Of a stretch of 64,000 nucleotides of DNA, positions 49,820-62,986 are shown one piece after another; position 1 is the first letter of the stretch, and each line of letters starts with the position of its first letter. The stretch is from NCBI GenBank assembly GCA_016214905.1, contig JACRMQ010000008.1, positions 62,001 through 126,000 of the forward strand, written 5' to 3'. The notes under the pieces are model-generated. The model searched no databases. It saw only the letters and a list, made by a program, of their open reading frames with translations, and was not told the origin of the DNA. This stretch comes from Ignavibacteriales bacterium. GTDB taxonomy: Bacteria; Bacteroidota; Ignavibacteria; UBA10030; SZUA-254. A program made the translations under genes and the position numbers.

Positions 49820-51283
49820 TTAATTTCTTTTTATTTCTTGAATGATTTCTCCGTCTTTATTTCTGATATTCACGACGAGCGGCATTTGTCCGGGAAGTGT
49901 ATGCGTTGCACATCCAAAGCATGGGTCGTAAGCGCGAAACGCCATCTCAACGGTATTCAGAATACCGTCGGTGACTGTTGTTCCTTTTTTAATAAGACCT
50001 CGTGCCGCTTTATTGATTGATAATGAGATGGGGGCATAATTGTTAGTTGTACCTACAATCAGGTTAGCTTTTCTCAAAATACCTTTTTCGTCAGTGATAT
50101 AATGGTGAGTAAGTGTACCGCGCGGAGCTTCCACAATCCCAACTCCTTCTGTGGGTGTTGCGGTTGGGATTGCACGAATATTCGTCCCGGTTATTTCCGG
50201 ATCGCGCACCAGATCAAGAGCCATTTCTGCGGCGCTGAGTAATTCGATGGTTCGCGCCCAGTGAGTTGCAAGCGTTGCGTGAACCGGTTTACCGCCTAAA
50301 GTTTTATACATTCTATCATATTCTTCTTGAGCAGCAGGTGTGGGCATTCCATCGGCAGCGTTCAAACGAGAAAGAGGAGTTGCGCGGTAAATACCGCTAT
50401 CTTTTCCTTCCACGAATCCTTTCCAGCCGACCTTTTTAAGAAACGGGAATTTCAAATATGTCCATGGTTCAACATGTTCTGAAACAACATCGAGATAATC
50501 ATTCGGTGAATACTTAACAAATTCTTTCCCGTCCGGATCAACTACGCGGACCTTTCCATCGTAAAAATTGACACGGTTTTTCTCATCTACCAATCCCATA
50601 GAATAAATCTTCATTGAAAACATATCAGATAATATCAGATCAACATAAGCTTTATTCTTTAGTACAATATCATTGAACACTTGAATCGTGAATTTCCCGA
50701 AATCAACGAACCATTTACAATGTTCTTCAATCAGTTTTCGTTCTTCTTCATTTATCCCTTTGCTTACACCACCGGGCAGTGAAGTAACCTGATGAGTATT
50801 TTTTCCTCCGAGTATTTTAATCACTTCCTGAGTTCGCCTTCTCATTTCGATAACTTTTCCACCGACTTCCAAACCAACTTTTGCAACAACACCGAGAATA
50901 TTACGTTGTGCTTTGGGAGCGTCGGGACCAACAACAAAATCAGGACCTCCTAACGCGTAGAAATGTGTTGTATGATCGCCGGCGTAGAATACATTATATA
51001 ATAATTCGCGGAGCTTCTTGGCTGTCGGAGGTATTTCCACATGGAAAACAGCATCGCACGCTTTTGCAGAAGCCATGTGGTGCGCTTCAGGACAAACACC
51101 ACAAATACGCGTTGTAATGCGGGGCATTTCTTCAACCGGTCTGCCGACGCAGAATTGCTCAAAACCGCGAAGCTCCGGAATCTGGAAATAAGTGTTAGCT
51201 ACTTCACCATCGTCGTTCAAGAAGATGTCGATTTTACCGTGTCCTTCTAAACGTGTTATCGGATCAATTTTAATTTGTTTCAT
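49820..51283 (-). CDS. mvhA: [NiFe] hydrogenase large (catalytic) subunit, group 3 type
   Basis: 487 residues. The four nickel-ligand cysteines are in place: C61-x2-C64 (RICGVCPEAHH) and C455-x2-C458 (DPCFGCATH). After His461 a 26-residue C-terminal tail remains (TLPGQMPL...), the piece removed by the maturation protease. TRLEGHGKIDI at the N-terminus and LPGGVSKGI are typical. Overall style, including the cytoplasmic partner subunits without Tat signal, matches group 3 (MvhA / HoxH-like) bidirectional enzymes. It overlaps the small subunit gene by 4 bp. Precise subgroup needs a tree. Confidence 0.93.
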   Translation of the reverse strand: MKQIKIDPITRLEGHGKIDIFLNDDGEVANTYFQIPELRGFEQFCVGRPVEEMPRITTRICGVCPEAHHMASAKACDAVFHVEIPPTAKKLRELLYNVFYAGDHTTHFYALGGPDFVVGPDAPKAQRNILGVVAKVGLEVGGKVIEMRRRTQEVIKILGGKNTHQVTSLPGGVSKGINEEERKLIEEHCKWFVDFGKFTIQVFNDIVLKNKAYVDLILSDMFSMKIYSMGLVDEKNRVNFYDGKVRVVDPDGKEFVKYSPNDYLDVVSEHVEPWTYLKFPFLKKVGWKGFVEGKDSGIYRATPLSRLNAADGMPTPAAQEEYDRMYKTLGGKPVHATLATHWARTIELLSAAEMALDLVRDPEITGTNIRAIPTATPTEGVGIVEAPRGTLTHHYITDEKGILRKANLIVGTTNNYAPISLSINKAARGLIKKGTTVTDGILNTVEMAFRAYDPCFGCATHTLPGQMPLVVNIRNKDGEIIQEIKRN

Positions 51284-52245
51284 ATTTTATCAACCCTCTT
51301 TAAAATAGAGTGAGCCATCGAAAATCGATAGAATGTTCCGAGCGGATCGGCGATTTGATTTAATATTTCATCGATCTCGTTCGGATCTTGTGAATCAACT
51401 ACAGAACTGAGTGCGCTTACCATTTTTGCGCCTTGATCTACAACATTCGGAGGCGCACCATAACAACCGCGGCAAGGCATATTCGCTTTTGTGCAAAGCG
51501 CTCCGCAACCGCTCCGCGTTGCAGGACCCATACAAATAATCCCCTGATCGAGAAGGCATTCGTTCGGATCCGGTAATATTTCGTACGGTCTGAAGAATTT
51601 TTTTATTTTTTTCTCTTTACGCTCCCGCGGACATTCATCGCAGCATGTTTTGTCATCGGCGCCGAGAACAGATCCTTTTGGCGGTAGCGGTTTGCCGCTC
51701 AAGATATATTCGATGACGTTCCATATTTGAAACGGCTGAGGAGGACAACCCGGTACGTAATAATCGACATCGATAACCTGATCGAGTGATTTTACAGTTC
51801 CCCACATTTCCGGAATTTCTATTTCACCTTCCGGCATTTTGGTGTGTGTTTGCGGATAGACGCCACCGTTCAAACTGACAGTTGAAGGGGAATCTTTGTA
51901 AACCCATTTCAATATTGCGTCTTTTGTTGTGAGGTTCGCTAAAGCCGGAATACAGCCTTCGTGCGCGCATGAACCGAATGCAACGAGCGCTTTAGATTTC
52001 GCACGAAGAAGATGAGCAAGTTCGGCATTTTCCGAATTTCGTATAGCACCGTTGAACAAACAAAGATCGATGCTCTTGTCTTCCATTTTTCTAACATCAT
52101 CATACTTAAAATCCATGGCGACGGGCCAAAATACGATATCGAAAGCGTTTGCCACATCGAGAATTTTTTCCTGGATATCCAGCACAGCTATTTCACAACC
52201 ACCGCAACTCGATGCCCAGTACAATGCTAATTTTGGTTTTGCCAT
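51280..52245 (-). CDS. mvhG: [NiFe] hydrogenase small subunit, MvhG-like
   Basis: 321 residues. Proximal-cluster ligands: YWASSCGGCEIAV, FGSCAHEGCIPA and VPGCPPQPFQI. The C-terminal half has more cysteines (TCCDECPRER, CMGPATRSGCGALC, CRGCYGAPP) that hold further [4Fe-4S] clusters, as in F420-nonreducing (MvhG) and related group 3 enzymes. No Tat signal, so it is cytoplasmic. It carries electrons between the nickel site and MvhD or the NuoG/HdrA-type partner. Its gene is 45 bp after mvhD. Confidence 0.92.
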   Translation of the reverse strand: MAKPKLALYWASSCGGCEIAVLDIQEKILDVANAFDIVFWPVAMDFKYDDVRKMEDKSIDLCLFNGAIRNSENAELAHLLRAKSKALVAFGSCAHEGCIPALANLTTKDAILKWVYKDSPSTVSLNGGVYPQTHTKMPEGEIEIPEMWGTVKSLDQVIDVDYYVPGCPPQPFQIWNVIEYILSGKPLPPKGSVLGADDKTCCDECPRERKEKKIKKFFRPYEILPDPNECLLDQGIICMGPATRSGCGALCTKANMPCRGCYGAPPNVVDQGAKMVSALSSVVDSQDPNEIDEILNQIADPLGTFYRFSMAHSILKRVDKI

Positions 52246-52290: not shown

Positions 52291-52740
52291 TTAAACAGTA
52301 ACGGGATTTTCTACGCGATCACCTTGACCGATTCTTTTTCTCCAATCAAGCGGTCCAAGAGAACGGATAGTCTCTGTGAACGTTGTAGTTACCTCCTGAA
52401 ATTTATCTCCTTCAGCGGCAGATATCCATTCGAGACGGAGCCGTTTCTCATCAATTCCGTACGCTTGCATAATTTTTTTCATAAGATGAGCACGTCTCAG
52501 AGTTTTATAATTTCCCTCAGCATAATGGCAGTCACCCGGATGGCAACCGCCTATCAGCACTCCATCGGCTCCAAGATCGAATGCCTTCATAATAAACGTT
52601 GGATCCACGCGGCCGCTGCACATCGTGCGGATCACTCTGATGTTTGCCGGAGATTTCAGGCGCGAAACACCGGCGAGGTCTGCACCGGTATACGTGCACC
52701 AATTACAGAGAAATGCTACTATTCTTGGTTCAAATCCCAT
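52291..52740 (-). CDS. mvhD: MvhD-type electron-transfer subunit
   Basis: 149 residues with the full MvhD signature: CNWCTYTGADLAGVSRL, RTMCSGRVDP, and GADGVLIGGCHPGDCHY. MvhD holds a [2Fe-2S] cluster and docks a hydrogenase or formate dehydrogenase onto HdrA. Its presence here is strong evidence that the hydrogenase delivers electrons to an HdrA-like protein, and the HdrA C-terminal half is encoded just upstream (42 bp). Confidence 0.95.
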   Translation of the reverse strand: MGFEPRIVAFLCNWCTYTGADLAGVSRLKSPANIRVIRTMCSGRVDPTFIMKAFDLGADGVLIGGCHPGDCHYAEGNYKTLRRAHLMKKIMQAYGIDEKRLRLEWISAAEGDKFQEVTTTFTETIRSLGPLDWRKRIGQGDRVENPVTV

Positions 52741-52782: not shown

Positions 52783-54546
52783 TTAAATTTCGAGCAGCCC
52801 TTCAAGCTCGGCAAAAATTTGCGCATCCGAAAATCCTTTGCCTGTTATTGCCGATGCCGGGCATGCTGCTACACATGTACCGCATCCCTTACATAACACA
52901 TCGTTGACCTGAGATATTTTTTTATCAGAAATAAAATCTATTGCTGAGTAAGGACATAGGTTGTTACACATTCTGCATCCGGCGCAATATTTCTCATCGA
53001 TGAATGCGCGAACAGGATCGATATCAACTTCACCTTTGGCGATAATAGATAGAATTCTCGCCGCGGCTGAGCTCGCCTGTGCAACCGTATCGGGAATATC
53101 TTTTGGTCCCTGAGCGCATCCGGCAATGTATATCCCGTCGCTCATGGTGGATGTAGGATCTAATTTCGGATGACGTTCAAGGAAAAATCCGTCGGGACTC
53201 TTACTGATAGAGAATATTTTGCGTATCGCTTCAATATCGTGACGCGGTTCTATAGCGTTGCACAAAACAACCATATCGACAGGAACCTCTCTGAACTTTC
53301 CGATGAGTGTATCTTCGCAACGAATGAGAAGCGATCCATCACCGTTGGAGCCGTGACTGCGTTCCACAACTTCGGCCGCTTTTCCACGAATCATCGTTAT
53401 CCCTTCATCCAACAGTCGGCTGTAGAATTCTTCGTACCCTTTTCCGAACGCGCGCATATCGATGTAAAATTGGTAGATAGCCGCATCGGTTCTGTCGTGA
53501 ACTAAATGCGCGAATTTAAGTGCATACATGCAGCACACACGCGAACAGTACGGATGGTTTTCAACATCACGTGAACCTATACAGTGAATTATGCCGACTG
53601 ATCTGGGTTGGTTCCCATTTTTCATTACAACTTTTCCACTGGTTGGACCGGTTGAATTCAATATTGCTTCAAACTCGAGAGACGAATAAACATTATCGAG
53701 TCGTCCGTAACCAAACTGCGCAAGTTTTGAAGCATCGAAAAGATCGTAGCCGGTTGCGAGCAAAACCTGTCCGGCATCAATTTCAACAATTTCATCTTCC
53801 ATTTTATAATTGATCGCCTGCGGTTCGCATACCTTTGCACATGTTTGACACCCGCCGGTTTCAAAATAGATACAAGACTCGGTATCGATTACCGGAACCC
53901 GCGGAACGGCTTGCAGTGTCGGCACGCTTATCGGAGTTTTCACACCAAGTGTAAATTCAGGTTTCTTGCCTTTATAATCTTCGACAACCATTTTAATATG
54001 ACCGGTTGGACACACATGAGCGCAAGCGCCGCATACAATACACGCATCCGAACGTTCACCGAACGGCAGAACAACTTTCCGTTTTATACCGCGGCTTTCG
54101 AAGCCGAGCACCGATGCTTTAACCAGATCGCGGCAAACATTCACGCACAAGCCACATAAAATGCAGGCCTCTGTCGCTTCATCTTTCTCCAGACTTTCGA
54201 ACCGGGGTTTTTCAACCCCCAATCGTTGGGCCATCTCTTTAACAACTTTAACATTGGGCCAGCGCGACAGCATCAATTCCATTATAACTTTTCTGATCCA
54301 TTTGACCTTGTCGGAATTTGTCAAAACACTTATACCATCCCGGACCGGATAGTTGCATGCCGTAACAAGACGGCTCCTTTTCCCACGAACCACCTCAACG
54401 CTGCACAATCTGCATACTCCATAAGGTTCAATAAGATCCGAATAGCACATCGTTGGGATCCAAACACCTGCTTTTTCGGCCGCTTGAACTATTGTGGTAT
54501 CTTCCACAACTTGAATTTCTATTCCATCTATTTTTACATTTACCAT
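52783..54546 (-). CDS. NuoG N-terminal ferredoxin domain fused to C-terminal half of HdrA
   Basis: 587 residues. Residues 1-80 form a [2Fe-2S] domain of NuoG/HydA type (C34, C45, C48, C64). The usual next His-Cys cluster is missing (SRWPNVKVV instead of HPLDCxxC). Two [4Fe-4S] motifs follow: C128-x2-C131-x2-C134-x3-C138 and C169...C179. From about residue 205 the sequence is HdrA from its mid-linker onward: LQAVPRVPVID, C225-x7-C233-x2-C236-x3-C240, the second FAD-contact ATGYDLF, IGSRD, AGCAQGPKDIPDTVAQASSAAA, and two C-terminal ferredoxin motifs (C521...C531, C552...C562). The GxGxxG half of HdrA is absent and is encoded separately at 61058-61915. Predicted central electron hub between NuoEF, MvhD and hydrogenase. 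Fusion is seen directly; function is inferred. Confidence 0.88.
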   Translation of the reverse strand: MVNVKIDGIEIQVVEDTTIVQAAEKAGVWIPTMCYSDLIEPYGVCRLCSVEVVRGKRSRLVTACNYPVRDGISVLTNSDKVKWIRKVIMELMLSRWPNVKVVKEMAQRLGVEKPRFESLEKDEATEACILCGLCVNVCRDLVKASVLGFESRGIKRKVVLPFGERSDACIVCGACAHVCPTGHIKMVVEDYKGKKPEFTLGVKTPISVPTLQAVPRVPVIDTESCIYFETGGCQTCAKVCEPQAINYKMEDEIVEIDAGQVLLATGYDLFDASKLAQFGYGRLDNVYSSLEFEAILNSTGPTSGKVVMKNGNQPRSVGIIHCIGSRDVENHPYCSRVCCMYALKFAHLVHDRTDAAIYQFYIDMRAFGKGYEEFYSRLLDEGITMIRGKAAEVVERSHGSNGDGSLLIRCEDTLIGKFREVPVDMVVLCNAIEPRHDIEAIRKIFSISKSPDGFFLERHPKLDPTSTMSDGIYIAGCAQGPKDIPDTVAQASSAAARILSIIAKGEVDIDPVRAFIDEKYCAGCRMCNNLCPYSAIDFISDKKISQVNDVLCKGCGTCVAACPASAITGKGFSDAQIFAELEGLLEI

Positions 54547-54561: not shown

Positions 54562-56394
54562 TTACTCTATATGGATAGCATCGAATTTACAGACATCATA
54601 ACAAATGCCGCACTTTCCGCATTTGGATGGATCGATACGGTGAGCCTGATTTTTTTCACCGATGATTGCATTATCGATACATTGCTTTCGGCAAACATCA
54701 CAACCATGCCCGACTTGAATGCAGACATTTTCATCTATACTATATTTAATGAGTGGTTTACAAACGTGCGCAGGACATTTTTTATCGCGGACATGCGCTT
54801 CGTATTCTTCACGGAAATATTTCATGCTGGTTAAAACCGGGTTGGGCGCCGAACCGCCAAGCGCGCACAGAGAAGACTCCACTACCATACTCGATAATTC
54901 TTCGAGCATAACAAGATCTTCCTCGGAACCTTTTCCCATCGTTATTTTATCCAGAATATCCAGCATCCGCTTTGTACCTTCTCTGCAAGGGATGCATTTT
55001 CCGCAAGATTCATCTTGAGTAAAGCTAAGGAAATATTTTGCCATATCAACCATACAGTTTTCCTCATCAGTCACAAGCATTCCGCCGGAACCCATCATAG
55101 ATCCGACTTTTGCAAGTTCTTCATAATCGACAGGCAAATCGAGTAAAGTTTCGGGTATGAATCCACCGGAAGGTCCACCGGTTTGAACGGCTTTAAATTT
55201 TTTACCTTCCGGGATACCGCCGCCGACTTTATAAATAATATCGCGCATGGTTATTCCCATCGGAACTTCTACAAGCCCGGTATTATTTACTTTTCCGGCT
55301 AACGAAAACACTTTTGTTCCTTTGCTTCCGCCCCATGGATCGACAGAAACATCTCCTGTTCCAATACTTGAAAACCATTTGGCACCCTTGAGTATAATCT
55401 GAGGAACATTAGCCCATGTTTCAACATTATTCAGGCACGTGGGACAGTCCCAAAGACCTTTTTCGACTGTGTGAATATATTTTGCTCTCGGTTCACCGAC
55501 TTTTCCCTCGATTGATGTCATGAGTGCAGTCGACTCACCGCACACGAACGCGCCGGCACCACGACGGATTTCAATATCGAAGTCAAAACCTTTATCGAAA
55601 ATATTTTTTCCAAGAAGACCATACTCACGCGCCTGTTTAATTGCGACCTCGAAGCGATGGATTGCAAGAGGGTATTGCATACGAACATATATAAAACCCT
55701 GCGTAACATTTTCAATCGCGTACGCCCCAATCAGCATTCCTTCAATCACAGAATGAGGATCACCTTCAACAATACTTCTATCCATAAATGCACCCGGATC
55801 TCCCTCGTCGGCATTGCATATAACATACTTAGCTGTGCCATGGGCTTTTTTACACGATTCCCATTTTACACCGGTAGGGAATCCACCGCCGCCTCGTCCT
55901 CTCAAACCCGATGCTTTTATCTCTGTTACAACTTCTTCGGGTTTCATGGATGTTAATACTTTCGCGATAGCTTTATAACCGCCCCGACCAATATAATCTT
56001 CGATTTTTTCTGGATCGATCATGCCGCGGTTGCGAAGAGCAATTAAAGTTTGATCTGCAAAAAATGGTATCTCCGACATTTTCGGAATAGGCGTTTTCTC
56101 TTCCGGCGGAATGTACATCAGTTTCTTTACGGGGCGCCCCTTAAGGAAATGTTCTGCCACCAAATGCGGAATATCCGACACCTTCAGAAGTTGATAGAAA
56201 ATTCCATCGGGCTGCACAACTACAAGAGGTCCGGCACCGCAAAATCCGTTACAGCCCGTTGTTATGACCGCTGCTTCTGTTTGCAGATTGTTTTTCTTAA
56301 TTTCCCTTTCAAACGCATCTCTTATTTCAAATGCATGGTTCGATACACAACCGGTACCTGTACATACCATTACTTGTATTCGATGAGTCGTCAT
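54562..56394 (-). CDS. nuoF: NuoF/HydB-type NAD(P)-binding flavoprotein subunit
   Basis: 610 residues. An N-terminal thioredoxin-like [2Fe-2S] domain (C11, C16, C48, C52) is followed by the FMN/NAD module (GLRGRGGGGFPTG near 164-175, NADEGDPGAFMDR, GAGAFVCGESTAL) and the [4Fe-4S] site C464-x2-C467-x2-C470 ... C510. Two C-terminal ferredoxin motifs follow, as in HydB of bifurcating hydrogenases. The first of these is irregular (C558-x6-C565-x2-C568-x3-C572), the second is regular (C592...C602). It would exchange electrons with NAD(H) or NADP(H) and is the likely bifurcation or confurcation flavin by analogy with HydB. 12 bp after the ferredoxin gene and 15 bp before the NuoG/HdrA fusion. Confidence 0.93.
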   Translation of the reverse strand: MTTHRIQVMVCTGTGCVSNHAFEIRDAFEREIKKNNLQTEAAVITTGCNGFCGAGPLVVVQPDGIFYQLLKVSDIPHLVAEHFLKGRPVKKLMYIPPEEKTPIPKMSEIPFFADQTLIALRNRGMIDPEKIEDYIGRGGYKAIAKVLTSMKPEEVVTEIKASGLRGRGGGGFPTGVKWESCKKAHGTAKYVICNADEGDPGAFMDRSIVEGDPHSVIEGMLIGAYAIENVTQGFIYVRMQYPLAIHRFEVAIKQAREYGLLGKNIFDKGFDFDIEIRRGAGAFVCGESTALMTSIEGKVGEPRAKYIHTVEKGLWDCPTCLNNVETWANVPQIILKGAKWFSSIGTGDVSVDPWGGSKGTKVFSLAGKVNNTGLVEVPMGITMRDIIYKVGGGIPEGKKFKAVQTGGPSGGFIPETLLDLPVDYEELAKVGSMMGSGGMLVTDEENCMVDMAKYFLSFTQDESCGKCIPCREGTKRMLDILDKITMGKGSEEDLVMLEELSSMVVESSLCALGGSAPNPVLTSMKYFREEYEAHVRDKKCPAHVCKPLIKYSIDENVCIQVGHGCDVCRKQCIDNAIIGEKNQAHRIDPSKCGKCGICYDVCKFDAIHIE

Positions 56395-56406: not shown

Positions 56407-56790
56407 TTATAAAATTTTTTCACTGCCGATAGCGTAGGCATATTCCTGCACAAATTTACCTTTCATGATGTGCTCATCGAAAATTCGTTTCGCTTTCGCT
56501 TCGGTAAGTTGGATGTACTTTACAGGTGCCTGACCCGTCAGCTCAATCGTTATCATCGGTTCTTTATTGCAAAGACCGGCACAACCTGTGCTTGTTATAA
56601 TAACATCATGTACATCGTGCGTTTCAATCTCTTTCAAAAATGTATTCATGATGTTTCGGGCACCGGCGGCAATTCCGCAGGTTCCCATATGAACCGTGAT
56701 TTTTGCCCTACCACCGCCTTCGCGTATCGTCATTTTTTTGCGCGCCTCTTCGGCAATTTTCTCTAAGTCTTCTATTTTCAGTTTACCCAT
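56407..56790 (-). CDS. Thioredoxin-like (2Fe-2S) ferredoxin domain protein
   Basis: 127 residues. HMGTCGIAAGARNIMNTF and TSTGCAGLCNKEPMITIE are the marks of the small ferredoxin-like proteins found next to HydB/NuoF in Thermotoga, clostridia and others. Only three cysteines lie at the cluster positions, which is usual for this subgroup, so a cluster may be absent or have another ligand. The N-terminal 25 residues are a helical, charged extension. Probably part of, or an assembly partner for, the NuoEF module. Confidence 0.85.
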   Translation of the reverse strand: MGKLKIEDLEKIAEEARKKMTIREGGGRAKITVHMGTCGIAAGARNIMNTFLKEIETHDVHDVIITSTGCAGLCNKEPMITIELTGQAPVKYIQLTEAKAKRIFDEHIMKGKFVQEYAYAIGSEKIL

Positions 56791-56817: not shown

Positions 56818-57279
56818 TTATTGGTATTTTTTTAATAGCTTTGTGGTTCCTTGTGCCGTCACTTTACCGTAGAGATCTTTTCCGATCACGACAACGGGGG
56901 CAATTCCGCATGCACCAACACATCGTACCGACTCAAGTCCGAACTTCATATCTTTCGCAGTTTCACCGCACTGGATTCCGAGTTCTTTCTCTAAAACATT
57001 CATTATTTTTGGAGCGCCGTAAGCATGGCATGCTGTTCCCATGCAAACGCAAACCTGGTATTTTCCGCGCGGAACCAAGCTGAACGCGTTGAAAAAAGTT
57101 GCAAGACTGTAAATCTGACTAAGCGGTACATGTGATTTTTTTGCAACTTCAAATATGATATCCCGCGGCAGATAATTAAACTCATTCTGCACATCATGCA
57201 TCATCTCGATGATGTTCTCCGGACGCGCACCCCAGCGCTGAACAATTTCATCAGATTTGAGTTGAAGATTATATTCCAT
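56818..57279 (-). CDS. nuoE: NuoE/HydC-type [2Fe-2S] subunit
   Basis: 153 residues: an N-terminal helical bundle (LMHDVQNEFNYLP-like, IIFEVAKKSHVPLSQIYSLATFFNAFSL), then the thioredoxin-like fold with ligands in VCVCMGTACHAYG and VRCVGACGIAPVV. It passes electrons between NuoF and the rest of the complex. Located 11 bp after a HATPase gene and 27 bp before the ferredoxin gene. Confidence 0.95.
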   Translation of the reverse strand: MEYNLQLKSDEIVQRWGARPENIIEMMHDVQNEFNYLPRDIIFEVAKKSHVPLSQIYSLATFFNAFSLVPRGKYQVCVCMGTACHAYGAPKIMNVLEKELGIQCGETAKDMKFGLESVRCVGACGIAPVVVIGKDLYGKVTAQGTTKLLKKYQ

Positions 57280-57290
57280 GGTCTTCTCCT

Positions 57291-57836
57291 TTAATTCTTA
57301 AAAAAACTTTCAATATTTTCTTCGATATATTTTTCGATAAAACTCAACACACTTGTTGAATTGATTGCGACATCTCGAATCTTGGTTTTAACATCCTTTG
57401 TCGCGAAGTTAAAACCTTTTTCATTTCTCTTAATATTTAATGTAAAATCAACATCGGGATAACTCGAAATAAGAGCTACGATCGTTTCGGAAATTTTACC
57501 GATCGGTTTCCGATCGATATGGCTCCAATTAAATACGGCAGTTACCGTTGTTCCAATATTCCTTTTCGATTCTATACTTAATGAACCGTCCGCCATCCGC
57601 GCGGCATCTTCAAGCAACGGTAATCCTAAACCGATTTTTCGACCAGACTTTCCTGTATAAAACGGATCCGGCGCCATCCTGGTTTGGGCATCATTCATAC
57701 CCGCGCCGTTATCTTTGACGATTATCGTAAGAAGATCTTTGGCGGTTTCTCTTATCACGCTTATTACTATTTCCTTTGCCCCGGCACGAATCGAATTTTC
57801 GGCGATATCGAGAATATGAAGAGAAATATCTTCCAT
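57291..57836 (-). CDS. HATPase-domain protein of the hydrogenase regulatory cassette
   Basis: 181 residues with a GHKL ATPase fold: N box ISLHILDIAENSIRAGA, G1 VKDNGAGMND, F-like DPFYTGKSGRKIGLGLPLL, and NIGTTVTAVF. There is no phospho-accepting helix. It resembles anti-sigma/serine kinase-like or stand-alone ATP-binding proteins seen beside hydABC. The N-terminal start overlaps the PHP gene by one base. A partner-switching or kinase role is likely; the target is unknown. Confidence 0.85.
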   Translation of the reverse strand: MEDISLHILDIAENSIRAGAKEIVISVIRETAKDLLTIIVKDNGAGMNDAQTRMAPDPFYTGKSGRKIGLGLPLLEDAARMADGSLSIESKRNIGTTVTAVFNWSHIDRKPIGKISETIVALISSYPDVDFTLNIKRNEKGFNFATKDVKTKIRDVAINSTSVLSFIEKYIEENIESFFKN

Positions 57837-58573
57837 TATTGAATTATCTTTCTGCCTTTTTCATTTCTGAACGCTTTTACTATTTCGGCGAACGATATTT
57901 CTTCTATCAAAAATTTTGAAAAAACGTTTCCGAAATCTTTCAGGAAGTGGGCATCTGAGTTTTGAACGAACGTGTAGTTGGAATATTCGGGAAATCTTTT
58001 ACGCGCCTCCGCAACCGTTAGGTTCGACGAGATTTCAAGACCATCGAAATGCGTGGTAATCGGTACAAATCCTAATTGAGATATAACGCTGTAGCTCTGC
58101 CGGTCGATATGAGATGCAAATGCCAGACCGTTTAGAGAATGAATGATATTAATAGCTTGCTCGATTGAGATATCAGCGGCACCGATTAGAAGTTTAGAAT
58201 TGAATCCGACTACTTCATCGTTCTCGTCGGCAACAACCTGCATTCCGAAAGTTTGCTCGTCATTTTCACCTTCGAGCCGTTCGTACACATATTGCTGTAA
58301 TTCGAATGCTGATTCTACATTATCAAAGAGCGCGACGACGTGAATTTCTTCTCTCGTGCAAACTTCCATGCCGGGCAGCACGATAAGCGGCGTTCCGTGA
58401 GCCGCGCGAAGAACTGCCGGAATGTTCACCGCGGTATTATGATCGCTGATTGCGATAACGTCTATGTTATGATGTAAAGCTTTAGCTACAATTTTTCGTG
58501 GCGTCATTTGCAGATCGCCACAGGGTGAAAGGCATGTATGCACATGCAAATCTGCCCTGATAATTGTTGACAT
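57836..58573 (-). CDS. PHP-domain phosphoesterase
   Basis: 245 residues. ADLHVHTCLSPCGDLQMTP, IAISDHNT, LPGMEVCTREEIHVVAL, FASHIDRQS and FVQNSDAHFLKD carry the metal-binding His/Asp/Glu residues of the PHP fold. This standalone form, with the CGDLQMTP block, is a regular member of hydrogenase-linked sensory cassettes. Activity is unknown; phosphatase toward a signalling partner is a reasonable guess. It overlaps both neighbours by one base, so it is translationally coupled. Confidence 0.88.
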   Translation of the reverse strand: MSTIIRADLHVHTCLSPCGDLQMTPRKIVAKALHHNIDVIAISDHNTAVNIPAVLRAAHGTPLIVLPGMEVCTREEIHVVALFDNVESAFELQQYVYERLEGENDEQTFGMQVVADENDEVVGFNSKLLIGAADISIEQAINIIHSLNGLAFASHIDRQSYSVISQLGFVPITTHFDGLEISSNLTVAEARKRFPEYSNYTFVQNSDAHFLKDFGNVFSKFLIEEISFAEIVKAFRNEKGRKIIQ

Positions 58574-58917
58574 TACGGTCCGGGGTGAATACCCATCTCG
58601 TAAAGTTTGCCGACAACCTGAAACGTCGATAATGTTGTAAGCATCAATGGAATTTTCTCTTCCTCGGCTTTTTTAACCGTTTCAGTGTCCGGTTCACGAC
58701 CTTCGGTAATAATAATTCCGCCGAGATCTTTTAAAACCGCGACCGCAATTATATTGGCATGAGACATCATGGTTACCCAAACATCCCCCTTTTTACTGCG
58801 GGCAATTACATTGCTCAACAAATCACTTGCGTATCCCCCTGTAATTTCCTGCTCAAATTTTTGTTCGCAGCAGAGTAATTTTAATCCTAACTTATCGACT
58901 ATACTATGCAATTTCAT
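58573..58917 (-). CDS. DRTGG-domain protein (second copy)
   Basis: 114 residues comprising almost only one DRTGG domain, the alpha/beta module also found in phosphotransacetylases and CBS proteins: ITGGYASDLLSNVIARSKKGDVWVTMMSHANIIAVAVLKDLGGII-type pattern and EEKIPLMLTTLSTFQVVGKLYEMGI. Such domains are thought to bind a ligand or partner. It overlaps the FeFe-like gene by 4 bp and the PHP gene by 1 bp. Confidence 0.83.
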   Translation of the reverse strand: MKLHSIVDKLGLKLLCCEQKFEQEITGGYASDLLSNVIARSKKGDVWVTMMSHANIIAVAVLKDLGGIIITEGREPDTETVKKAEEEKIPLMLTTLSTFQVVGKLYEMGIHPGP

Positions 58918-60248
58918 GATGTTATCATTTTAATATTGCTGTTTATTTTTTCACTGTGTCGAAGCACTGTTTCAAGCAAATCGCTTGATAATTTTTCAAA
59001 TTTTTTTATCGCAACAAAGATGCAATCATCGAGCATTACACGCTCTAAAACCACGTCTTCGGCAAAAGCCAAACATGTTGGCGAACCACAAGCACCGCAA
59101 TCAATCTTTGGAAGTTTATCGTGAATGTCTTGTTTCTTTTGCATTTTCTCGATAGCCCTTGATATTTCCTCATCCAGCGGTTGGACGGGGTGCGGCGAAA
59201 TTTTACCAATTAATGAAAAGAAGTTCTTTTGATATAATCCACGAATTTTTTCTCTATTTTGACATGGGATTAATCCGTATTTTTCCACCATTCGAAGAAC
59301 TCTGCCCCTGGCGATATAAGGATTTTCAACAGTCAGCGTTCCTCCTACACATGCGGTTGGACATGAATGACATTCAACATATTGAATATCTTTTAATCTA
59401 TCATTCTCAATATCCTCAAGAATACGAACTGTATCTGTTAATCCGCCTACCGCGAAACAATCTTCTGCCTTCAAACACGCAACTTGCCCGCCGACTATGG
59501 GCCAGCCAAGTCCCAATCCTTGAATATCTTTTATATCATGATTACCATTAGATTGAGAAATTGTTTGCAGCAATGTAGGATAAATATCGCGCATGGCAAT
59601 TGCGCCGTCGATGAAAGAGTGCTTTTTGCGCAACGGATTTTTTATGCTTAACATCTTCGCCGGGCATGGAGTTATATAGATCGCTCCTATTTCGCTTGCT
59701 TTGAGCCCGGTCTCTTTCATTTTCAAATTTTTCGCTTCCCGCGCGGCAATCTCCATCGGCGATTCAATCGGTATGAGATGGTCTAGTAAATTCGGATAAC
59801 GAATCTGAATTAACTGCACGATAGCGGGACAAAAAGAAGATATCAACGGTCGTGGTGACTTATTCGTATCGAGATATTCTTGAATCGCGATACTAACGGC
59901 TTCCGAGGCGCACGCCACGTCGTACACATCGTTAAAACCGATTTTTTTTAGAGATTCTAAGATCAGAGAAGGAGTTGTATCTTTTCCGAACTGGGCATAG
60001 AATGCAGGAGAAGGTAGCGCAATTGTATATTTAAACTTTGAAAAATCTTTGAACGAGCTTGTCATCGCGATAATTGCATTATTCGGACAAACCCGAACGC
60101 ATTCACCACAATCAATGCACCGGTCATCGAGCAACGATGCTTTCTGATTCCGAACACGGATGGCTTGTGTTGGACAAACACGCATACAATGCATATGCCC
60201 GTCACACAAATCATCGACAAACTTTATAGTATGAAATTCTCCGTGCAT
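58914..60248 (-). CDS. [FeFe]-hydrogenase-like protein, probable sensory type
   Basis: 444 residues. Two N-terminal ferredoxin motifs come first; in the first, His18 takes the place of the second Cys (C15-x2-H18-x2-C21-x3-C25) and the second is regular (C44...C54). The H-cluster-domain homologue spans about 70-330 with possible ligands C140 (SSFCP), C195 (TPCPAK), C296 and C300 (CPTACVGG). Where catalytic enzymes have Cys before the first ligand (TSCCP) there is Phe139. A C-terminal cluster motif DCGACGSPTC...DDC (384-409) follows, like those of RnfB. The lost proton-relay Cys points to a sensor rather than a turnover enzyme. Encoded in the middle of the regulatory cassette. Confidence 0.85.
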   Translation of the reverse strand: MHGEFHTIKFVDDLCDGHMHCMRVCPTQAIRVRNQKASLLDDRCIDCGECVRVCPNNAIIAMTSSFKDFSKFKYTIALPSPAFYAQFGKDTTPSLILESLKKIGFNDVYDVACASEAVSIAIQEYLDTNKSPRPLISSFCPAIVQLIQIRYPNLLDHLIPIESPMEIAAREAKNLKMKETGLKASEIGAIYITPCPAKMLSIKNPLRKKHSFIDGAIAMRDIYPTLLQTISQSNGNHDIKDIQGLGLGWPIVGGQVACLKAEDCFAVGGLTDTVRILEDIENDRLKDIQYVECHSCPTACVGGTLTVENPYIARGRVLRMVEKYGLIPCQNREKIRGLYQKNFFSLIGKISPHPVQPLDEEISRAIEKMQKKQDIHDKLPKIDCGACGSPTCLAFAEDVVLERVMLDDCIFVAIKKFEKLSSDLLETVLRHSEKINSNIKMITS

Positions 60249-60251
60249 TTA

Positions 60252-60677
60252 TTAATTAACATTCAGTGTTATAATTACTTTTGTTCCTTTGCCTATTACA
60301 GATTCAATTTTTAAATAATCAGAATTTTTCTTTATGTTCGGTAAACCCATTCCGGCCCCGAAACCCATTTCACGCATTTCACGTGTCGCTGTTGAAAATC
60401 CTTCTTGCATCGCTAAACTGACATCCGGAATCCCGGGTCCTTCATCATCAACTATTATCGATATTTGTGACGGTGAAACTTCAAACGTCAATGTTGCTTG
60501 CTTTGCATACATTACTACATTCATTTCGGCTTCATAAGAAGCTATTGCAACGCGCCTGACAATTCTTGCGTTTATGCCGAGCTGTTTCAGGATCGCTTTA
60601 ATTTCCGTTGATGCTTTCCCGGCATTGTAAATATTTCCCCCTTGAATTTTAAAAGTTTGTAAAAAAGTATTATCCAT
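60252..60677 (-). CDS. RsbW-like ATP-binding protein
   Basis: 141 residues with the GHKL fold of anti-sigma regulatory kinases: RRVAIASYEAEMNVVMYA (N box), VDDEGPGIPD (G1), and MGFGAGMGLPNIKKNSD (G2). Similar proteins act in partner switching. It is 3 bp before the FeFe-like gene and overlaps the first DRTGG gene by 8 bp. No sigma or anti-anti-sigma factor is visible in the window. Confidence 0.87.
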   Translation of the reverse strand: MDNTFLQTFKIQGGNIYNAGKASTEIKAILKQLGINARIVRRVAIASYEAEMNVVMYAKQATLTFEVSPSQISIIVDDEGPGIPDVSLAMQEGFSTATREMREMGFGAGMGLPNIKKNSDYLKIESVIGKGTKVIITLNVN

Positions 60678-61044
60678 TCTCGTTTTCGCACTTCAAACGC
60701 TCCATCGTTGGATCGAGTCCAATCTTGTACAATAAACCGCAAGCTTCATACATCGAGAATCGTGTGCCCAGAAGCGGTATCTTTTTTTCGGTTGCGAAAG
60801 CGATCATGCTAATATCAGGTTTTTTACCTCGAACCAGTATTACAGCGTTAATCTCTGCAATGTGTGCCGTTTTAATTGTTTGTATGTTCGCTAATCCTGT
60901 TAATAAAAGCGCTCCGGATTGCGAAAAAGCGAGAACATCGCTCATCAAATCGGAAGCACATCCGAATTCTATGGGCATACTAAGTTGTTCTTTCCCGCAG
61001 AATATATCGCATTGAAGAATTTCGCTGATGGAAGATAATAGCAT
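60670..61044 (-). CDS. DRTGG-domain protein (first copy)
   Basis: 124 residues, one DRTGG domain: FGCASDLMSDVLAFSQSGALLLTGLANIQTIKTAHIAEINAVILVRG-like core and FATEKKIPLLGTRFSMYEACGLLYKIGL. It is clearly related to the second copy at 58573-58917 (shared ASDLLS/ASDLMS, SMYEACGLLYKIGL versus STFQVVGKLYEMGI). Two different DRTGG proteins flank the ATPase and FeFe-like gene, so they may form a heteromer. Confidence 0.82.
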   Translation of the reverse strand: MLLSSISEILQCDIFCGKEQLSMPIEFGCASDLMSDVLAFSQSGALLLTGLANIQTIKTAHIAEINAVILVRGKKPDISMIAFATEKKIPLLGTRFSMYEACGLLYKIGLDPTMERLKCENENG

Positions 61045-61057
61045 TATCGTTTATCGG

Positions 61058-61915
61058 TTAATCCTGAATTTGCGTTATATTTTCGTTTATAAGTTTTCCA
61101 TCTATAAATATAGATCTACCAGACGGAATCCTTGTTGCCGGACAATTACTCCAACACTGACCACAGCCGGTGCATTTATCGGTATCAACGTATCGAGCTT
61201 TCTTACGAACTTTAATTTTAAAATTTCCGATGAAACCGCTCATACTTTCCACTTCGGAATATGACATAAGAGTTATATCTTTCCTATGACCTACGGAAAC
61301 CATTTTGGGTGTAAGTATGCACGCGGCACAATCGAGTGTTGGAAAAGTTTTGTCGAATTGACCCATCCGTCCGCCTATCGTCGGTTCTTTTTCAACTAAA
61401 TAAACATGATAACCGGCATTGGCAATTTCGAGCGCTGCCTGTATACCGGCAATTCCTCCGCCAACAATAAGAGTGTTTTTGTTGATTTTTGCTTTACCAA
61501 TTTCCAATGATTCGTGAAGGGCGACCCGGCTTACAGCCGCATTCACAAGCGCTTTCGCTTTATGTGTCGCCTCGTCTCGATTATCGTGAATCCATGAACA
61601 ATGCTCACGAATGTTTGCAATTTGTACCAGATATCTGTTCAATCCGCCCGCTTCGGCGGCGAGCCGGAAAGTAAGTTCATGCATTAACGGAGAACATGCC
61701 GCAACCACGACACGATTAACGCCTAATTTTTTTATATCTTGTTTTATTAAATCCTGTCCCGGATCGGAACACATGAATTTATAATCACGCGCAATCACAA
61801 CGTTTTTTGCCTTTGCAATGAACTCACGTACAGCGGCGACGTTTACAGTTGCAGATATATTCACTCCGCAGTGACAAATATATACACCGATTTTTGCTTG
61901 ACCATTCTGTGACAT
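61058..61915 (-). CDS. hdrA: N-terminal half of HdrA (FAD-binding subunit)
   Basis: 285 residues. The N-terminal HdrA domain (VYICHCGVNI, VVVAACSPLMHELTFR, IANIREHCSWIH) is followed by the FAD loop VGGGIAGIQAALEIANAGY (151-169), EKEPTIGGRMGQFDKTFPTLDC, and a [4Fe-4S] motif C248-x2-C251-x2-C254-x3-C258. The frame then stops 27 residues later, exactly before the linker leading to the second half of normal HdrA (about 650 residues). The missing half is present at 52783-54546. A stop by recent frameshift is unlikely, because the next gene starts 13 bp on with no HdrA remnant between. GGAG precedes the ATG at 61915. It would bind the flavin jointly with the other half. Confidence 0.9.
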   Translation of the reverse strand: MSQNGQAKIGVYICHCGVNISATVNVAAVREFIAKAKNVVIARDYKFMCSDPGQDLIKQDIKKLGVNRVVVAACSPLMHELTFRLAAEAGGLNRYLVQIANIREHCSWIHDNRDEATHKAKALVNAAVSRVALHESLEIGKAKINKNTLIVGGGIAGIQAALEIANAGYHVYLVEKEPTIGGRMGQFDKTFPTLDCAACILTPKMVSVGHRKDITLMSYSEVESMSGFIGNFKIKVRKKARYVDTDKCTGCGQCWSNCPATRIPSGRSIFIDGKLINENITQIQD

Positions 61916-62035: not shown

Positions 62036-62986
62036 TTATTTCACCATTGCTAGGACTTCATCGCTCGATTTCTTTACCGAGGCAACAGATTTAGCAAATG
62101 CTTCTTTCTCTTTGTCAGTCAAATCCATAACGATAATTTTTTCAATACCCTTAGCGCCTAAAATTACCGGCACACCGATGAATAAACCATTAACACCATA
62201 CTCACCGTTGAGTAATGTGCAAACCGGCAAAATCTTTTTCTTATCAAAAATAATCGCTTCTGCCATCTCCAACGCCGCCCATGCCGGAGAAACAAATGCC
62301 GAGCCGCTGCCCAACAACTTAACTACCTCACCGCCTGCTTGTCTGGTGCGAGCTTCGATAGCATCAAGTTTATCGGGGGCAATAAATTTTTCCACCGGCA
62401 TTCCGCCTATGCGGCATGCCGAGCGGATTGGCAACATATCGTCACCGTGACCACCAAGAACCATGGCTTCAACGTTCTCAATGCTTACGCCAATTTCTTT
62501 AGCCACGAAGTATCTGTATCTCGCAGAATCCAACACACCTGCCATACCCATAACTTTCTCGCGTGGTGGTTTCAGATTCATATTGAGCCGATAAACAATT
62601 GCATCCAACGGATTGGCAATCGAGATGATTGTTGCTTTTGGGCAGAATTTCGAAATACCTTCGCTCACGGCGTCGGTAATTTTTAAATTGGTCGCCAGTA
62701 ATTCTTCCCGTGTGGGAATTGTGCCGTCGGGTCGGGCGGCGCGAGGTACTCCGGCAGTATTTATAACCAAATCTGCACCGGATATAACATCGTATTCTTT
62801 TGCTCCTTCAACAACCACATCTGATGAAATGATCGGTGAACCTTCAGAAATATCCAAACATTTACCTTTGGACAAATCGGGTGCTTTCACGTCTACAAGA
62901 CTTACATACTTTGCAAGGCGTCTCCGCACTATTTCCTGCACCAATACACCGCCTATGTTGCCGCCGCCTATAACTGCTATTTTCAT
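62036..62986 (-). CDS. mdh: Malate dehydrogenase (LDH-like type)
   Basis: 316 residues. NAD loop IGGGNIGGVLVQEI, AGVPR with the substrate Arg, NPLDAIVYRL with the Asn, and the proton-relay His in GGHGDDMLP. The active-site loop reads PRAARPDGTIPTREELL, longer than the common MDH PRKPGMSRDDLL. An acidic residue follows the NAD fold strand (VDVKAPD), fitting NAD. It interconverts malate and oxaloacetate. AAAGGAG precedes the ATG. It is unexpected between hdrB and hdrA genes. Confidence 0.9.
   Translation of the reverse strand: MKIAVIGGGNIGGVLVQEIVRRRLAKYVSLVDVKAPDLSKGKCLDISEGSPIISSDVVVEGAKEYDVISGADLVINTAGVPRAARPDGTIPTREELLATNLKITDAVSEGISKFCPKATIISIANPLDAIVYRLNMNLKPPREKVMGMAGVLDSARYRYFVAKEIGVSIENVEAMVLGGHGDDMLPIRSACRIGGMPVEKFIAPDKLDAIEARTRQAGGEVVKLLGSGSAFVSPAWAALEMAEAIIFDKKKILPVCTLLNGEYGVNGLFIGVPVILGAKGIEKIIVMDLTDKEKEAFAKSVASVKKSSDEVLAMVK

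Follow-up and report, generated by a model that had tools for sequence, protein, structure and literature searches.

A conserved six-gene cassette in an Hdr-NuoEF-[NiFe] operon of an Ignavibacteriales bacterium as a candidate redox-sensing regulator of electron-bifurcating oxidoreductases

What does a set of six tightly packed genes, one of them coding for a relative of [FeFe] hydrogenases, do inside the operon of a [NiFe] hydrogenase? We addressed this question in a 64,000-nucleotide stretch of an Ignavibacteriales genome (the window; contig JACRMQ010000008.1, positions 62,001 to 126,000), where the six genes –here called the cassette– lie on the minus strand at 57291-61044. Our preferred reading, to which we give a probability of roughly 0.58, is that they encode a conserved redox-sensing regulator of NAD/ferredoxin-bifurcating oxidoreductases (those with a Bfu, or HydBC, core), in this case within an Hdr-NuoEF-[NiFe] operon.

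At the gene level, we confirmed the composition given in an initial annotation of this DNA: two DRTGG proteins, two GHKL ATPases, a PHP phosphoesterase and a hydrogenase-like (FeFe-like) protein, recognized by Pfam and, for DRTGG1, by its AlphaFold 2 (AF2) fold. The six open reading frames (ORFs) overlap by 8, 4, 1 and 1 base pairs (bp), just as described there, with one gap of 3 bp:

60670..61044, minus strand: DRTGG1, 124 amino acids (aa), first gene of the cassette (Pfam, AF2 fold, conservation)
60252..60677, minus strand: HATPase1, 141 aa, SpoIIAB-like GHKL ATPase or kinase (PF02518, conservation)
58914..60248, minus strand: FeFe-like protein, 444 aa, with a Fer4 dicluster, a hydrogenase domain and a C-terminal FeS domain; relative of group D HydS
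58573..58917, minus strand: DRTGG2, 114 aa (PF07085, conservation)
57836..58573, minus strand: PHP-family metal-dependent phosphoesterase, 245 aa (PF02811, metal ligands complete)
57291..57836, minus strand: HATPase2, 181 aa, GHKL ATPase, adjoining nuoE (PF02518, conservation)

DRTGG2 scored 38 bits against PF07085 (cut-off 25.2). DRTGG1 reached 20.2 bits, under the same cut-off; its AF2 model (mean predicted local distance difference test, pLDDT, 93) matches the DRTGG structures 2ioj (template modelling score, TM, ~0.8) and 3l2b, and by this predicted fold it counts as a DRTGG domain despite the low score. D32 and S35 are invariant in both proteins, and T49 also in DRTGG2. In HATPase1, residues E49, N53, D78, G80, G82, G105, G107 and G109 are conserved at nearly 100%, covering the N-box (E49/N53), the D78xGPGI and GFGAGMG motifs and both glycine boxes (G1, G2); the N-box of HATPase2 is Asp10/Asn14. 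The PHP ligands H10, H12, H45, E70, H78, H155, D207 and H209 are invariant in 75 sequences; among solved structures, the closest one carries the annotation 5'-3' exoribonuclease. The FeFe-like protein combines Fe_hyd_lg_C (PF02906) with Fer4 and FeS (PF04060) domains. With catalytic residues this close to invariant, the view of a single coherent module that unites kinase-like, phosphoesterase-like and hydrogenase-like parts stands.

To see how far the cassette extends, we compared 105 related loci (designated L), chosen by similarity to it and with a few contigs counted twice; a GTDB contig scan added at least 80 loci among the best matches listed, a sample biased toward window-like sequences. 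All six genes were present in 60 of the 105 loci. They were collinear on one strand in 52, in the order DRTGG1, HATPase1, FeFe-like, DRTGG2, PHP, HATPase2, and in the remaining eight, all clostridial, the last ATPase lay on a divergent hydABC operon. Complete cassettes are hosted by Ignavibacteriota/Bacteroidota, Aminicenantes, Sumerlaeota and Clostridia. The six-gene set is thus a real module, far beyond chance; a lack of co-occurrence in other genomes, which the initial annotation had named as the finding that would speak against it, is the opposite of what we observed. The reduced set of L072 consists of the FeFe-like, DRTGG2 and HATPase2 genes; L063, from the same genus group, retains DRTGG1, HATPase1 and PHP.

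That the cassette sits in a [NiFe] operon, and that its DRTGG and ATPase genes are doubled on either side of the FeFe-like gene, had been regarded as peculiar, and here we disagree, since both traits follow the standard plan across loci. A search with DRTGG2 matched 23 of 293 genomes of the class, most of them with the order HdrB-HdrAN-cassette-NuoE-2Fe2S-NuoF-NuoG/HdrAC-MvhD-NiFe, and this Hdr-NiFe version is common to ~30 sampled genomes. Besides, an earlier report describes a NiFe-HydABCSL operon of Acetomicrobium mobile that includes the accessory genes HisK, HydP and HydD (PMC8880783). Both operons unite a bifurcating HydABC core, a NiFe unit and accessory genes, those of A. mobile being assumed to serve maturation or regulation (PMC8880783); three such genes are named there, whereas the full six-gene cassette and a split HdrA are found here.

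The partner enzyme varies with the host. It is of the NiFe-Hdr type in Ignavibacteriota/Bacteroidota, Aminicenantes, Sumerlaeota and one Acidobacteriota locus. In Clostridia, the cassette accompanies an [FeFe] HydABC, with the L1 and L3 motifs of HydA intact in 24/24 loci with a HydA-sized gene, which bears out the earlier statement that such sets lie beside hydABC in clostridia. These clostridial loci share the cassette and the NuoE/2Fe-2S/NuoF core with the window, and differ in placing HATPase2 between nuoE and the 2Fe-2S gene, in their FeFe HydA catalytic subunit and in usually having HydG in the genome. A short cassette precedes NuoE/NuoF in L053 (9005-16458) and L054, followed in L053 by an 844-aa molybdopterin oxidoreductase of the formate-dehydrogenase type, and in L098 (4072-5367) the cassette has as its neighbour a NuoG-like subunit that contains a GCV_H (lipoyl-carrier) domain. 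Common to all these partners is the NuoE/NuoF core, which corresponds to the Bfu (HydBC) core (PMC9304861). The cassette therefore tracks this NAD/ferredoxin-bifurcating core and not one catalyst; where HATPase2 is kept and the core is present, its gene adjoins nuoE in most loci. Cassettes beside large GCV_H-domain proteins were also seen in L090 (6934-8769) and L093 (6397-8214); the GCV_H-associated loci perhaps encode a bifurcating enzyme that uses lipoyl as its third substrate.

Does the FeFe-like protein then sense hydrogen? The sites that bear on this question are the following:

59829..59831, minus strand: C140, first H-site cubane Cys (equivalent to CpI C300); the preceding C299 equivalent is Phe139
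59664-59666, minus strand: C195, second H-site Cys
59349..59363, minus strand: C296 and C300, third and fourth H-site Cys
59484..59486, minus strand: Q255, replacing the proton-relay Glu (TamHydS E252)
59022..59099, minus strand: C-terminal Cx2Cx4Cx16C cluster motif (C384, C387, C392, C409)

Its domain plan is that of group D (M2e) HydS such as TamHydS: Fer4, hydrogenase domain, the C-terminal Cx2Cx4Cx16C motif of M2e (PMC8163306) and no PAS domain. Further likenesses are a residue other than Cys at C299, a Thr (T193) at the M353 position, where Ser/Thr is the criterion, the four cubane cysteines, and a gene whose neighbours encode a bifurcating hydrogenase and a HATPase. The differences concern H2 chemistry. 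The group D proton relay E252-E289-S249-D265 (PMC10407848) reads Q, E, V, G in the window protein, by a TamHydS numbering mapped through conserved pattern and offset, TamHydS itself being outside our alignment and tree; only the E289 equivalent is retained. In TamHydS, E252V or E252D leaves <0.01% of H2 oxidation (PMC10407848). The window protein also has Phe at C299, has lost one N-terminal cluster Cys, is encoded with a NiFe partner and in a genome where neither HydG nor HydF passes the cut-off, and belongs to a deep clade apart from the FeFe-associated proteins.

This clade came from a quick-search tree of 94 FeFe-like proteins, which separated two strongly supported sides. The 40 proteins on one side comprise all NiFe/Hdr loci together with the formate-dehydrogenase, lipoyl and similar loci; the other 54 are nearly all from Clostridia, with FeFe HydABC or with no such neighbour on the stretch examined. 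The E252 equivalent is kept in 0/40 on the NiFe side vs 50/54 on the FeFe side, and that of D265 in 1/40 vs 53/54. At the C299 position, 24 of the 40 have Phe, whereas 51 of the 54 have Ala or Ser, mostly Ala, and the N-terminal cluster motif retains its second Cys in 4/40 vs 54/54. The four cubane cysteines and the C-terminal ones are conserved among the FeFe-like proteins; in L053 and L054 the cubane C296 is replaced by His.

We also looked for maturation genes of the H-cluster. In the window genome (99.6% complete), we found no HydG match and, for HydF, only distant GTPases below cut-off; HydE was not searched for. The only PF02906 protein of this genome is the FeFe-like protein of the cassette. 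HydG passed the cut-off in one of the ~30 NiFe-operon genomes vs six of seven FeFe-clade genomes (Fisher p 2.4e-5, computed on 1/29 vs 6/7), a p-value that is generous because the genomes are interrelated and many are of unknown completeness. That an FeFe-like protein can occur in a maturase-free genome has a precedent in the composite hydrogenase of Desulfitobacterium hafniense, whose genome was reported without maturation enzymes (PMC9888536), although that protein is of HydA type and not a HydS relative. Since the marks of H2 chemistry are lost while the cassette is kept, the cassette probably does not need an H-cluster for its role here. The cubane site is kept, and this suggests an Fe-S redox role; the best reading of the FeFe-like protein is thus as an Fe-S redox sensor.

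Natural fusions and exchanges gave hints on how the parts connect. DRTGG1 and HATPase1 form a single protein in seven loci (L053, L054, L092, L098, L101, L105, L155), which argues for direct contact between them. L064, L066 and L068 lack the FeFe-like gene, and their HATPase1 is extended at the N-terminus by a region that Pfam identifies as a CBS pair in L064 and that has a similar sequence in L066 and L068. Two of the three CBS-type genomes (G047, G224) had no FeFe-like match genome-wide at E 1e-20. The CBS swap looks like an exchange of input domain and, because the CBS region stands in place of the FeFe-like gene, it puts the FeFe-like protein upstream of HATPase1. The pyrophosphatase of Clostridium perfringens (3l2b, 3l31), which shares the DRTGG fold, likewise joins CBS and DRTGG in its regulatory region; the DRTGG proteins here are free-standing, without a pyrophosphatase. 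We gave no weight to PHP-HATPase2 fusions in L099 and L113, as these are long ORFs whose N-terminal stretch is unmatched and which come from a pair of close relatives.

The mechanism that we propose would have an input arm and a return arm. The FeFe-like protein, probably without a working H-cluster, would report the Fe-S redox state, probably that of the ferredoxin pool, and would act on the pair formed by DRTGG1 and the SpoIIAB-like ATPase or kinase HATPase1. DRTGG2, PHP and HATPase2 –the latter encoded beside nuoE– would receive the signal and act at or near the bifurcating enzyme, most simply through reversible phosphorylation, with putative kinase and phosphatase activities and the invariant Ser35 of both DRTGG proteins as the best candidate site. 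The action would be on the enzyme, not on transcription.

Several points weigh against this proposal. Ser35 could be invariant for structural reasons, and HATPase2 carries Asp where the catalytic Glu is usual in GHKL ATPases. Some Clostridia hold the cassette apart from any bifurcating operon on the stretch examined, and two loci, L113 (of NiFe type) and L093, lie in HydG-bearing genomes. Moreover, no conserved target of the regulator was identified. We also considered the orphan clostridial cassettes as a pointer to another partner enzyme, and rejected the idea because their neighbours are unrelated.

Among the alternatives, the initial annotation had left room for an H2- as well as a redox-sensing switch, and only the redox part remains. 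A sensor whose H-cluster binds H2 and so switches the relay of ATPase, DRTGG and PHP proteins would agree with group D relatives such as TamHydS, proteins with H2 turnover that have been named putative H2 sensors (PMC8163306, PMC10407848), with the four retained cubane cysteines and with a partner enzyme that is itself a hydrogenase. However, judged from the gene content and residues described above, an H-cluster sensor of the known kind is unlikely here because HydG is unmatched, no HydF passes the cut-off and the relay residues are lost; with C299 replaced by Phe, HydG missing from nearly all NiFe-operon genomes and the cassette also found beside a formate-dehydrogenase-like enzyme, we regard H2 sensing as very improbable. 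The cassette could instead be an assembly or repair factor, in which a Nar1-like FeFe-like protein and the GHKL ATPases insert Fe-S clusters into the bifurcating enzyme or activate it. An H-site without evident H2 chemistry recalls eukaryotic Nar1 (PMC12621388), the HATPase2 gene lies among the structural genes of HydABC in Clostridia, and the cassette has no DNA-binding member. Nevertheless, E. coli yields an assembled and active Caldanaerobacter HydABCD from an operon with only one such gene, tte0891, and the complex is described with four subunits (PMC4694547); tte0891 may be HATPase2 by its operon place. Assembly as the main role is less likely for this reason, and a CBS region replacing the FeFe-like gene suits a sensor better than a cluster carrier, so that we hold this explanation to be unlikely.

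We likewise doubt a transcriptional partner switch, in which HATPase1 would be an anti-sigma or anti-activator kinase, or in which the cassette would feed the neighbouring Cache kinase/NtrC pair to control the operon. SpoIIAB is the nearest family of HATPase1, with the GHKL fold, the N-box Glu and Asn and the G1 and G2 boxes of SpoIIAB/RsbW, yet the score is 51 bits vs a family cut-off of 135, and no STAS antagonist or sigma factor lies alongside. The sigma or anti-sigma partner that the initial annotation proposed to search for was looked for: none of the genes that recur beside the cassette codes for a STAS protein, a sigma factor or SpoIIE, and the STAS and SpoIIE genes elsewhere in the genome, which could be counted in favour of a switch, are generic. 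An AraC-type gene flanks TamHydS (PMC8163306), and kinase and NtrC genes are adjacent to the operon beyond the window and near it in several relatives, but the pair is missing from most clostridial loci. There is no sigma-54 site upstream of hdrC or hycI in this genome, and the one strong site belonged to a single relative (L063 and L080, the same contig). The earlier remark that no DNA-binding output is recognizable thus holds among the six products; an output may nevertheless exist in the kinase, NtrC and double-receiver genes just beyond the window. These divergent genes (L158:5402-10291) encode a Cache-HAMP-HisKA kinase, an NtrC-type sigma-54 regulator and a protein of 390 aa in which two receiver domains flank a Cys-rich central part.

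A redox-sensing regulator as preferred here bears on the signalling of HydS-type 'sensory hydrogenases' and on whether H2 is what they detect, since a large natural branch that keeps the cassette but not the marks of H2 chemistry separates signalling from H2 sensing and ties the cassette to the electron-bifurcating NuoEF core instead of hydrogen. The natural CBS exchange and the DRTGG1-HATPase1 fusions offer experimental handles. More speculatively, group D HydS cassettes in general might be redox governors of bifurcating enzymes and not H2 sensors by need: the pseudo-hydrogenase would read ferredoxin poise, the SpoIIAB-like kinase, two DRTGG switches and PHP phosphatase would set the activity or direction of NuoEF, and the CBS version would be an interchangeable input. 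We consider this generalization possible, though rather doubtful. The module is widespread and its pieces are already known as neighbours of bifurcating hydrogenases. By name, almost nothing on the cassette was found in the open-access literature; within it, the HydS-relative branch without H2-chemistry marks, the NuoEF link and the CBS exchange appear to be new.

Finally, the operon around the cassette comprises hdrC-hdrB (partly beyond the window), mdh, the HdrA N-half, the cassette, nuoE, the 2Fe-2S gene, nuoF, the NuoG/HdrA-C fusion, mvhD and the NiFe small and large subunit genes. Promoter and terminator scans of it gave numbers close to those of shuffles. Its main genes outside the cassette are:

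61058..61915, minus strand: HdrA N-terminal half (HdrA2 positions 1-256), directly upstream of the cassette
56818..57279, minus strand: NuoE/HydC-like 2Fe-2S subunit, directly downstream of the cassette
56407..56790, minus strand: thioredoxin-like 2Fe-2S protein
54562..56394, minus strand: NuoF/HydB-like subunit
52783..54546, minus strand: NuoG/HoxU-like N-terminus fused to the C-terminal part of HdrA
52291..52740, minus strand: MvhD-like subunit (named by operon place and conservation across loci)
51280..52245, minus strand: NiFe hydrogenase small subunit (named by position and conservation across loci)
49820..51283, minus strand: NiFe hydrogenase large subunit (VhuA-like)

The split of HdrA into 61058-61915 and 52783-54546 is conserved in relatives; in L064 and L068 the two parts are joined in a single protein of 1083 aa. 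In L060, L062 and L065, a radical SAM gene (~310 aa) is inserted between the NuoG/HdrAC gene and mvhD. The malate dehydrogenase (MDH) gene (62036-62986) stands between hdrB and the HdrA N-half, as it does in L078 and in L059, where it lies beside a second MDH-like gene.

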